From Flavobacteriales bacterium (GTDB taxonomy: Bacteria; Bacteroidota; Bacteroidia; Flavobacteriales_F; PHOS-HE28): 64,000 nucleotides of DNA. A program made the position numbers and the translations under genes. Shown one piece after another: positions 12,948 to 49,174 of the stretch. The DNA is taken from the NCBI GenBank assembly GCA_026129465.1, contig JAHCIA010000001.1, positions 2,431,964 through 2,495,963 of the forward strand. The letters are read 5' to 3'. Position 1 is the stretch's first letter. Each line of letters starts with the position of its first letter. A model generated the notes under the pieces. The model was not told the DNA's origin, did not search any database, and saw only the letters and a program-made list of their open reading frames with translations.

Positions 12948-12955
12948 TAACCGGT

Positions 12956-13043
12956 CGTTAGTTGTCGGTTGCCAGGCCTCCGTCGCGATCGCGTCACGCT
13001 GGCACCACTGACAACGGACAACCGAGGCCTGACAACTGAACGA
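12956..13043. repeat. Heptad-repeat hairpin element (family C)
   Basis: The whole gap between the aminotransferase and the amidase is an inverted repeat made of 7-base units. The right side reads CCACTGA, CAACGGA, CAACCGA, GGCCTGA, CAACTGA in direct succession (from about 13003). The left arm is the complement (AGTTGTC, GGTTGCC, AGGCCTC from 12960). The same units recur in frame inside lipB at 26408-26438. It is not coding and could act as a terminator, RNA structure or mobile repeat. Confidence 0.7.
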
Positions 13044-13045
13044 GC

Positions 13046-19082: not shown

Positions 19083-19197
19083 GAGTGGCGAGTGGTGAGT
19101 GGCGGCCCACAGGGCCAACCCGCCGAGTGGCGAGTGAATGCCCTGGGCGAACACGTTCCGTGCAGGGCATGCACTCGCCACTCACCACTCGCCACTC
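19083..19197. repeat. Heptad-repeat hairpin element (family B) with 59-base core
   Basis: A perfect 22-base inverted repeat (19083-19104 against 19176-19197) made of GAGTGGC/GAGTGGT 7-base units. Inside it, 19125-19183 is a second hairpin: the 21-base arms pair with one mismatch and end in AATGCCC on the left and GGGCAT on the right, and the tip contains CACG-TTC-CGTG. The core has the same length (59) and arm sequence as that at 41844-41902. It lies between the ATP-grasp and C45 genes. Confidence 0.85.
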
Positions 19198-19236
19198 ACC
19201 TCTCTTCCTCCCCCCAACACGACCTTAGGGCTTAGC

Positions 19237-25848: not shown

Positions 25849-26550
<702 letters not shown>

Positions 26551-27032
26551 TTTCACCGCAGAGACGCGGGGGCGCAAAGTTCGCGGAGGAGCGCAACAGA
26601 CCTGCGGATCATTCGCTCAAGCCGTTGACCACACGTCGCAGGCCACTCCTCAGCAGAGCCTCATTGAAGTTGATGAGCAACCCCGGCTTGCATCCGGTGA
26701 GCTTCAGGTAGGTGAGCAGTTGTGCCATGTGGTTGTCGTGCAGCGCATCGACGGCCTTGACCTCGATGATCACCAAGCCTTCCACGATGATGTCCAAACG
26801 CAACGTGACCCCGAGGTCCTTTCCGCGAAAGGAGACCGGCACGGGGACCTGCTGCTCCACGCGCAGGCCCATGTCGAGAAGTACCTGGACGAGACAGAGC
26901 TCATAAACACCTTCGAGCAGTCCGGGCCCAAGCTCCCGATGTACCTCGATCGCTGCTTGGATGATAATGGAGCTGAGTTCGTTGTGCGTCATCTCCCTGC
27001 GCCCTCAGCGTCTCCGCGACTCTGCGGTGAAC
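26551..27032. mobile_element. GxxExxY cassette 1 with octad terminal inverted repeats
   Basis: The gene at 26609-26992 is bracketed by inverted copies of a TTCACCGCAGAG-type end: 26551-26588 (plus strand) and 27032-26991 (minus strand). Each arm continues as loose 8-base units (CGCAGAGT, CGCGGAGA, CGCAGAGA). One end touches the lipB ATG, the other lies seven bases from the isomerase stop, so the element fills the gap between two housekeeping genes. No transposase is present; movement would need an outside factor. Confidence 0.6.
26609..26992 (-). CDS. GxxExxY protein (PD-(D/E)XK nuclease-like), copy 1
   Basis: A 127-residue protein. The name motif is GLLEGVY near residues 24-30 (after HRELGPG). 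The nuclease-like core is LRLDIIVEGLVIIEVKAV (about 64-81), with Asp...Glu-x-Lys in the PD-(D/E)XK arrangement, followed by AQLLTYLKLTGCKPGLLINFNEA, the most conserved part. The Pfam PDDEXK_3 group has this plan; its biochemical role is not established. It is about half identical by eye to the copy at 29686, so the two are not a recent duplication. Its own octad repeats flank it on both sides. Confidence 0.85.
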   Translation of the reverse strand: MTHNELSSIIIQAAIEVHRELGPGLLEGVYELCLVQVLLDMGLRVEQQVPVPVSFRGKDLGVTLRLDIIVEGLVIIEVKAVDALHDNHMAQLLTYLKLTGCKPGLLINFNEALLRSGLRRVVNGLSE

Positions 27033-29643: not shown

Positions 29644-30122
29644 GACCACAGAGGCACAGGGACACGGAGAACACTGGGATCAGGTATGGCCAGGGCTGAA
29701 CTGAATATGCTCACCTCCAATGTATTGGCGGCGGCCATAGAGGTGCACAAGGAATTGGGGTCTGGGCTCTTGGAGTCCATTTACGAACACTGCCTTGCAC
29801 AAGATCTCCAGGACCGTGGGCTGGACATCCAGGGGCAGGTCATTGTACCTGTGCGCTATAAAGGCAAGCCAGTGGGACCATCCATGAAGTTGGACTTGCT
29901 CGTGGAGCAAAGGGTCATCATCGAAGTGAAGGCCGTCGAATGCCTCCATGAAGCACATCGCGCCCAACTGCTGACGTATTTGAAGCTCACCGGATGCAAG
30001 CCGGGGTTGCTCTTGAACTTCAATGAGGCATTGATGAAAGAGGGCGTCATTCGCGTGGTGAACGGAGATCTTGATGCCCCTTAATGGTCCTTTCCCTCCG
30101 TGCCCCTGTGCCTCCGTGGTGT
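29644..30122. mobile_element. GxxExxY cassette 2 with octad terminal inverted repeats
   Basis: A 24-base inverted repeat with two mismatches (29646-29669 against 30096-30119, starting CCACAGAGGCACAGGG) brackets the gene at 29686-30084. The arms are 8-base units (CACAGAGG, CACAGGGA, CACGGAGA). The element begins four bases after the lysS stop and ends about ten bases before the stop of the opposite-strand cyclophilin gene. No transposase gene. Confidence 0.7.
29686..30084 (+). CDS. GxxExxY protein (PD-(D/E)XK nuclease-like), copy 2
   Basis: A 132-residue relative of the protein at 26609. Motifs: HKELGSGLLESIYE (GxxExxY near 27-33), MKLDLLVEQRVIIEVKAVE (nuclease-like Asp...Glu-Val-Lys, about 67-85) and AQLLTYLKLTGCKPGLLLNFNEA (about 94-116). 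The two copies differ by about half of their residues while keeping the core, so each has been under selection or came separately. The ATG follows GATCAGGT, a sequence shared with the empty element at 35164. Function unknown; a role in DNA or RNA cleavage is only suggested by the fold. Confidence 0.85.
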   Translation: MARAELNMLTSNVLAAAIEVHKELGSGLLESIYEHCLAQDLQDRGLDIQGQVIVPVRYKGKPVGPSMKLDLLVEQRVIIEVKAVECLHEAHRAQLLTYLKLTGCKPGLLLNFNEALMKEGVIRVVNGDLDAP

Positions 30123-34084: not shown

Positions 34085-34165
34085 AGTGGCAAGTGGCGAG
34101 GTTGGCAGCTGGCAAGTCAAACCCCGCTAATCGCCAACTTGCCAACGTGTAAACTCGCCACTGTT
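34084..34165. repeat. Heptad-repeat hairpin element (family B, degenerate)
   Basis: AGTGGCGAG (34092-34100) pairs with CTCGCCACT (34154-34162), and inside it TGGCAAGT (34110-34117) with ACTTGCCA (34137-34144). The element fills the gap between the M28 stop and the gpsA ATG at 34168. It has the same outer units as those at 19083 and 41822 but lacks the AATGCCC core. Confidence 0.65.
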
Positions 34166-35163: not shown

Positions 35164-35290
35164 GACCACAGAGCCTATGGGAACCACAGAGGTCACAGAG
35201 AGATCAGGACCAATGGCCATGGCCCAACCCGTTCTGGCGGGCGGCTTTCCGCGGCAATAACTCCGTGCCCTCCGTGCCTCTGTGGTGAAC
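35164..35290. mobile_element. Empty octad-repeat element
   Basis: The left end has two CCACAGAG-type units (35166 and 35184) and the right end is CTCCGTGCCTCTGTGG-like (35261-35285), the inverse of the left. The inside is only about 70 bases. It keeps AGATCAGG followed by ATGGCC, as in cassette 2, but has no GxxExxY gene. A 15-codon frame starts there (35213-35260) and ends at TAA. It lies between gpsA and the small conserved gene. Confidence 0.6.
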
Positions 35291-41821: not shown

Positions 41822-41937
41822 GAGTAGCCAGTGGCGAGTAGGCGAGTGGCGAGTAAATGCCCCATACCGGCGCTTATCGCCGAGGGCATTTACTCGCCAC
41901 TCGAAGGTCGCAGGCCGAACTCGCCACTCGCCACTCT
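41822..41937. repeat. Heptad-repeat hairpin element (family B) with 59-base core
   Basis: Outer GGCGAGTGGCGAGT-type units face ACTCGCCACTCGCC-type units. The core at 41844-41902 has the same 59-base length and the same arms (GAGTGGCGAGT..AATGCCC and GGGCATTTACTCGCCACTC) as that at 19125-19183, while its tip is different (CGGCG-CTTAT-CGCCG) but again self-complementary. It lies between uvrC and lpxD, divergent genes. Confidence 0.85.
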
Positions 41938-48884: not shown

Positions 48885-49174
48885 GACGGGGCAGGTTTGG
48901 TGCGGGTTCCGGAAGCAGGTGCCGGCATTCGCACACCAAGCGGGGCGTCACCACACCCAGCGCAGGAAGTACCGGAGCGCCAGCAAGCTAAAGCAGAGGC
49001 CGACAGGATGCAAACAGGTGGTGGGCGGTTCTTGTAGACTTGACGGAAGCTTAACGCGGGGAGGGGAGGTGAAGGCTTGGCCGCGACAGGCGCACGCGGA
49101 GGCGCGGAGGAGGCAGGGGCAACTCAGTGCCTCCGCGTCTCTGTGTGGGATGCTCGGCCCACCAGCCTGGACCT
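48885..49174. other. Intergenic gap
   Basis: 290 bases between the minus-strand propeller gene's start and the aldehyde dehydrogenase's stop. It holds an empty octad-repeat element at 49085-49150 and presumably the promoter of the propeller gene at its left side. No reading frame of convincing composition is seen. Confidence 0.5.
49085..49150. mobile_element. Short octad-repeat element without cargo
   Basis: Left CGCGGAGG units (49096-49110) face CCTCCGCGTCTCTGTGTGG (about 49130-49148), whose complement starts CCACACAGAGACGCGGAGG. Only about 20 bases lie between the arms. It is the smallest member of the same family as the GxxExxY cassettes. Confidence 0.5.

Follow-up and report, generated by a model that had tools for sequence, protein, structure and literature searches.

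The window, by which we mean the whole stretch of 64,000 nucleotides of a Flavobacteriales genome that was analysed, contains inverted arrays of short tandem units that surround either a short loop or a single small open reading frame (ORF). The features are as follows (hairpins and their arms carry no strand).

12957–12980, no strand: left arm of the family C heptad hairpin, TTAGTTG TCGGTTG CCAGGCC, read from the letters; clearer in the ortholog of relative G024
13006–13039, no strand: right arm of the family C heptad hairpin, CACTGA CAACGGA CAACCGA GGCCTGA CAACTGA, read from the letters
19083–19104, no strand: left arm of a family B heptad hairpin, GAGTGGC GAGTGGT GAGTGGC G, with 22 of 22 bases complementary to 19176–19197
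19125–19145, no strand: inner left arm GAGTGGCGAGTGAATGCCCTG; this inner hairpin is common to the elements at 41822 and L012
19163–19199, no strand: right arm of the family B heptad hairpin, with an inner ATGCCC stem
26552–26591, no strand: left arm of GxxExxY cassette 1, 8-nt units
26609–26992, minus strand: GxxExxY protein (TIGR04256/PF13366) of cassette 1
26993–27031, no strand: right arm of GxxExxY cassette 1, 8-nt units
29645–29669, no strand: left arm of GxxExxY cassette 2, 8-nt units CACAGAGG
29686–30084, plus strand: GxxExxY protein (TIGR04256/PF13366) of cassette 2
30096–30120, no strand: right arm of GxxExxY cassette 2
34092–34162, no strand: degraded hairpin with heptad-like arms AGTGGCGAGG... 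/ ...CTCGCCACT
35183–35286, no strand: octad hairpin without a gene, ACCACAGAGGTCACAGAG ... CTCCGTGCCTCTGTGGT
41822–41854, no strand: left arm of a family B heptad hairpin, imperfect units with one indel
41884–41936, no strand: right arms of the family B heptad hairpin
49094–49138, no strand: octad hairpin without a gene, ACGCGGAGGCGCGGAG ... CTCAGTGCCTCCGCGT

Direct inspection of the letters in the gap at 12948–13045 revealed inverted 7-nt units on both arms, in register, including a degraded unit (GGCCTGA) in the right arm, and no ORF belonging to the element. The description of both arms as 7-base units, made in an earlier note on this DNA, holds for the sequence, even though the single copy is marginal when scored as an inverted repeat (12.1 against a shuffle maximum of 11.8); the orthologous gap of the nearest relative, G024, is clearer (score 17.7; arms TCAGTTGTCGGTTGTCAGTG / CACTGACAACGGACAACTGA). 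TRF does not list the element at 12956, and a lag scan of the whole window at strict thresholds, too strict for degenerate arms, detected the array at 19172 alone. GAGTRRY heptads make up the clear hairpins at 19083 and 41822. The three hairpins at 12957–13039, 19083–19199, and 41822–41936 group as gene-less members of a dispersed class; for the units at 12956–13043, we hold their reading as the arms of such a gene-less member with about even confidence.

Period statistics used the window together with 400 kb sampled from the host genome, 464 kb in total. Because multiples of 3 dominated a scan that covered coding and non-coding DNA alike, autocorrelation was restricted to 193 intergenic gaps (28.4 kb) and compared at lags 2–30 to dinucleotide shuffles. 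The highest positive value among these lags was found at lag 7 (z = 7.9), with z = 4.9 at lag 15 and z = 2.3 at lag 8. An inverted repeat scoring above every shuffle was present in 18 of 192 gaps, and the best arm lag was 7 in nine of these 18. Among 92 ordinary small host genes (90–230 aa) used as controls, lags were multiples of 3, and one gene had a strong lag-7 score. The intergenic 7-base period that had been proposed is thus real, standing well above shuffled DNA, and is not a product of coding; the signal sought at lag 8 is weak genome-wide but clear at the GxxExxY cassettes.

When the heptads of 107 loci were aligned circularly, each taken as the 5' arm, they yielded the degenerate register N-R-G-H-N-N-Y, with G in 88% of the loci (93% in the many-phyla set described below) and a total information of 2.57 bits, compared to a null maximum of 2.11 when columns were permuted within loci. 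GAGTGGC of family B and CAGTTGT of family C both match this register, which supports the suggestion that the two families are variants of one heptad-based element. The observation offered for that kinship, a two-base difference between CCACTGA and CCACTCG, is literally correct but was set aside as evidence of relatedness because it depends on an arbitrary register. Fixed unit sets per family were likewise found in part: GxxExxY arms have a core, CRCRRA[G/T], whereas the heptads keep the R-G-H core and a constant period while their sequence drifts from locus to locus, so that they do not form fixed families.

The commonest factor shared by the elements is the enclosed ORF. Six genes of the host genome score above the curated cut-off for the four-helix-bundle family (PF05635/TIGR02436). 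Each is enclosed by inverted short-unit arrays, mostly heptads, with a unit that differs per gene (TCAGTTG, GAGTGAA, AAGTGGC, CTGGCTA, GACATAG, and CATGNNN). Arrays of 8 or 9 nt flank the three GxxExxY genes of the host (TIGR04256, PF13366), two of which are in the window (26552–27031 and 29645–30120). Within the genus, the best lag was 7 or 14 in 50 of 75 flanks of four-helix (IVP) genes; for GxxExxY flanks it was 8 or 9 in 27 of 32 and 7 in none, and shuffles were flat in both sets. Shuffles and control genes were used for these same-genus sets, where a null of mismatched flanks was unusable because orthologous loci share arms.

A profile scan of GTDB genomes with six proteins recovered 80 four-helix loci from about ten phyla (Bacteroidota, Acidobacteriota, Chloroflexota, Planctomycetota, Desulfobacterota, Proteobacteria, Firmicutes, Fibrobacterota, Omnitrophota, and Ignavibacteria). 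Most of them lie between 7-nt arrays, with a median flank complementarity of 18.4 against 10.0 for mismatched flank pairs; 33 of the 80 exceed the 99% null, 30 of them with lag 7 or 14. The phylum-wide GxxExxY loci keep the core CRCRRA[G/T] (e.g., CACAGAG, CGCAGAT) at a spacing of 8–11 nt. Therefore, GxxExxY arms conserve sequence with loose spacing, whereas four-helix arms conserve spacing and little sequence. The 8-base unit claimed earlier for the GxxExxY cassettes agrees with their 8–9 nt spacing here and widens to 8–11 nt across the phylum. Four-helix loci with an 8- or 9-nt period form a minority that is clustered on the protein tree, on which the period changes 6 times, compared to a shuffled mean of 11.5 (minimum 9). 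Unit sequence varies by locus, and the period tracks the protein. Among the four-helix loci, one subclade (L034, L102, L109, L121, and L132) carries long 9-nt arrays (AAGGGAGGT type) at several different sites.

The elements are dispersed, and their sites show turnover. The family C motif GTTGTCRGTTGTC is present in 51 copies in the host and in 0–153 copies per genus member, compared to mostly 0–1 per strand for the reversed control, and these counts are lineage-specific bursts. Family C is also abundant in some genomes whose examined IVP loci include none with a C unit (e.g., G025, 47 matches), which counts against the reading preferred below. A second motif, GAGTGGCGAGTGG, has 12 matches at eight separate loci. 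In more than 20 relatives, the orthologs of the 19083 and 12956 gaps contain various heptad families (GAGTGGC, GGTGAAT, GGGTATT; TCAGTTG, GGGTTGA, GGGTACA), octad hairpins, complete GxxExxY cassettes, or hardly any sequence (near-empty gaps of 14, 57, and 13 nt). With occupant classes assigned by eye from the gap sequences, parsimony on the flanking-gene tree gave 13 and 14 occupant changes in the two orthologous gaps, and recombination between species may have produced some of this turnover. The near-empty 13-nt gap of L191 in G021 (TTGAGCGTTCACC) ends in TTCACC, the outer end of octad elements, and is possibly a loss scar.

Insertion was also observed within a gene. The host dnaE-like DNA polymerase III alpha gene (L005:1–2376; C1, about 1377702–1380077) carries hairpins of families C, B, and C in its open frame. 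Compared to Thermus DnaE, the first is an insertion (query 210–264 against 7 target residues) and the second a 24-residue insert; the third, beyond the alignment, is probably an inserted hairpin as well, judging from its arms. Beside GxxExxY cassette 1 in the window, family C heptads (GTCGTCAGTGGTCAGTTGTTCGTTGTCAGG, 26407–26436) overlap a minus-strand frame at 25849–26577 and may represent another insertion into a coding gene.

Our preferred reading, which we regard as about evenly balanced against all others, is that the elements are mobile hairpins resembling the intervening sequences (IVSs) of 23S rRNA, whose arms would be series of binding sites for a ring protein that sets their spacing. 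We observed the architecture directly, whereas the way in which the elements move is inferred. They would be selfish and mobile and would belong with the 23S rRNA IVSs, their arms bound by the four-helix protein, putatively a ring, at one subunit per heptad. Binding of this type would constrain the spacing and a small number of bases per unit, leaving the remainder free. New unit variants would subsequently propagate through each arm by slippage, and the protein, acting with host functions, would transfer or copy the bound hairpin to other locations. Elements of the GxxExxY class may move through their own nuclease, and gene-less hairpins such as that at 12956 would be non-autonomous copies served in trans.

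A solved relative of the four-helix protein, XCC0516 (2gsc), is homologous at a profile E-value of 7e-35 and is described in PMC4990558 (citing Lin 2006) as a homopentameric toroid of four-helix bundles. The number of units per arm has a median of 4.6 in the genus and 4.8 across many phyla, although the spread is wide (IQR 3.4–7.6 in the genus) and the figure depends on the detection threshold. A pentameric relative together with 4.6–4.8 units per arm favours arms that are binding-site arrays with one subunit per heptad, and the repeated protein-binding site suggested in the earlier note, still a putative one, is consistent with these data. The family to which GxxExxY is assigned, PDDEXK_3, has a nuclease fold, and a candidate D...ExK pattern was recognized by eye in the window copy; therefore, this class may cut. 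A bolder version, which we put forward tentatively and think rather doubtful, is that all of these are small selfish cassettes whose ring protein reads spacing, not sequence, at 7 nt (four-helix) or 8–11 nt (GxxExxY) per subunit or unit, with the IVSs as the tip of the class. If the protein does read spacing, arms could change their sequence freely and yet remain recognized and moved, which would amount to a new way of recognizing and mobilizing nucleic acids.

Changes within the arms bear on the alternative that slippage and intrastrand template switching alone generate the elements, in which case quasipalindrome correction would keep the arms complementary, the ORFs would be passengers, and the period would be an accident of the founding unit. 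At one orthologous four-helix gene, five species have arms of TCAGTTG and two have arms of GTAGGGC; both arms switched together, in place, and intermediates such as AGTTCGT remain visible. Between two genomes that are about 98% identical at an array-bearing locus, the sole indels (assembly Ns aside) are +28 and +7 nt, i.e., whole units, a kind of array growth and loss that slippage can account for. Such joint changes and unit-wise indels, as well as the long arrays at some loci, are what this alternative expects, and PMC4679880 reports that a bacterial excess of heptanucleotides has been ascribed to polymerase slippage. However, slippage alone leaves unexplained how one unit recurs across a genome at numerous unrelated sites, the in-frame dnaE-like insertion, the turnover of element classes at one site, the tie between period and protein family, and the R-G-H position conserved across phyla; we consider it unlikely, if still a serious contender. 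Against mobility, the fetched loci included no pair of near-identical gene-bearing copies at different sites of one genome, therefore recent gene-bearing transposition is not supported. Target-site duplications could not be resolved in the relatives compared because these are too diverged.

Alternatively, the hairpins could act on the expression of neighbouring genes or function as RNA stems. The elements are mostly intergenic, and almost every species examined has an occupant in the orthologous gaps. In Beggiatoaceae, TAACTGA repeats directly precede start codons (PMC4679880), and RNase III cuts the stem of the 23S IVS (PMC4990558). Against these points, some sites are empty in relatives, some insertions are within a coding gene, and sense-strand mismatches in IVP arms show no bias to G-U (G-U versus A-C: 187 versus 240 in the genus and 192 versus 286 in the many-phyla set). 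RNA pairing is therefore probably not the conserved function, a role at the DNA level is favoured, and we judge this explanation improbable. The excess of A-C over G-U mismatches on the sense strand of the many-phyla IVP arms (286 versus 192; p = 2e-5) is a strand asymmetry.

Mobilization of REP/RAYT-type elements by a Y1 tyrosine transposase would also produce small intergenic palindromes, and PF01797 is encoded by 33 of the 45 genus members. As in REP/REPIN-RAYT systems and MITEs, the elements are small, dispersed, intergenic palindromes with autonomous and non-autonomous forms; unlike in these systems, their arms are drifting unit arrays, no transposase is required across the genus, and there is no fixed REP tag. 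PF01797 is missing from 12 of the 45 genomes, six of which are at least 93% complete, and a RAYT as a requirement was rejected on this absence. Near-complete genomes without PF01797 (G003, G004, G008, G019, G038, and G039) carry IVP and/or GxxExxY genes, so that a Y1 transposase is not a constant of carrier genomes. The PF01797 genes have no flanking heptads. Inspection of the arms found no fixed GTAG/CGTC tag, nor the tagged 20–40 bp palindrome of REP elements, their units being subject to drift. We regard this mechanism as very improbable.

DGR-like retroelement copying, in which a reverse transcriptase would carry out the repeat-templated copying that had been proposed, is scarcely credible, even though the four-helix protein has a likeness to Avd (PF05635 and Avd are structural homologues, PMC10053308, and the L034 protein weakly matches the Avd model, E = 2.7e-4): it was largely ruled out for this genus by the missing RVT_1, which is absent from the host, where no reverse transcriptase with a TR/VR pair was found, and from 39 of the 45 genus genomes (present in 6).

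The IVS-like mobile hairpin that we prefer was compared to known systems. In the 23S IVS of Coxiella, a tandem run of three GACAGAT heptamers, whose number varies among strains, lies just upstream of a four-helix ORF (PMC4990558). The elements share with the IVSs of Coxiella and Leptospira (PMC4990558) terminal inverted repeats that form a stem around one PF05635/TIGR02436 ORF, and with that of Coxiella the variable-number tandem heptamers beside the ORF; an S23p/four-helix ORF between inverted repeats was found in gene-bearing members in the host, the genus, and many phyla. Unlike the IVSs, they are located outside rRNA, between ordinary genes or in a protein gene, and have heptad arrays with locus-specific units on both sides and abundant gene-less copies. 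Because the defining rRNA location (helix 9, 25, or 45) fails, with the window elements between protein genes and no rRNA at the loci, the elements are classed as IVS-like, not as IVSs. A mobile-element origin of IVSs was suggested in 1993 and left open, according to PMC4990558.

The TAACTGA repeats of Beggiatoaceae, cyanobacteria, and Bacteroidetes (PMC4679880) and the cyanobacterial STRR are similar in being intergenic 7-nt tandems with reported indels in 7-nt steps, and TAACTGA fits the heptad register on the opposite strand (TCAGTTA, i.e., cAGTTAt). Unlike the elements here, they are presented in PMC4679880 as direct repeats on one side only, fixed in sequence and proposed to be regulatory, with no tie to a four-helix protein or to inverted arms; across our loci, no fixed heptamer sequence is shared, only the R-G-H spacing. 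The GGGAATC / GGGGAYT heptamers of Xanthomonas and Nostoc likewise occur in arrays, often two inverted close together, and X. campestris also encodes the four-helix protein XCC0516; these heptamers are, in contrast, interpreted as G-quadruplex repeats in PMC4692102. The roles proposed for the heptamers reported in PMC4679880 and PMC4692102 are regulation, rearrangement, and G-quadruplexes. CRISPR and simple SSRs have head-to-tail units without an inverted partner, whereas the two arms here are inverted partners. Rickettsia palindromic elements are palindromic repeats located in frame in protein genes, a likeness to the in-frame hairpins of the dnaE-like gene; we know of no heptad arms or associated ORF in them.

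The 23S rRNA IVSs were first described in 1990, and their function and origin were called unclear in 2016 (PMC4990558). In the open-licence literature, we found no general tie of heptad arrays to a four-helix protein, nor of GxxExxY to octads, and GxxExxY is scarcely mentioned. To our knowledge, the four-helix (S23p) and GxxExxY proteins are widespread without an assigned function. The heptad class may explain what the intervening sequences of bacterial rRNA genes are, and the tie of protein family to period across phyla would make the IVSs and both proteins one question, that of ring-protein binding to heptads. If correct, this tie would unite the heptamer reports from cyanobacteria, Beggiatoaceae, Xanthomonas, and Bacteroidetes.

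Several loci have compound or decaying arrangements. A tandem pair of four-helix genes lies within 900 nt at L027/L108 (G040:C23), octad elements are stacked in tandem or nested at one site at L088, L189, and L346, and L346 contains two GxxExxY genes about 1.2 kb apart. Broken GxxExxY genes, some with stops, are present at G031:C37:41193-41541, G006:C22:23857, and G023:C1:83502; as these genes are in pieces, the cassettes decay in place.
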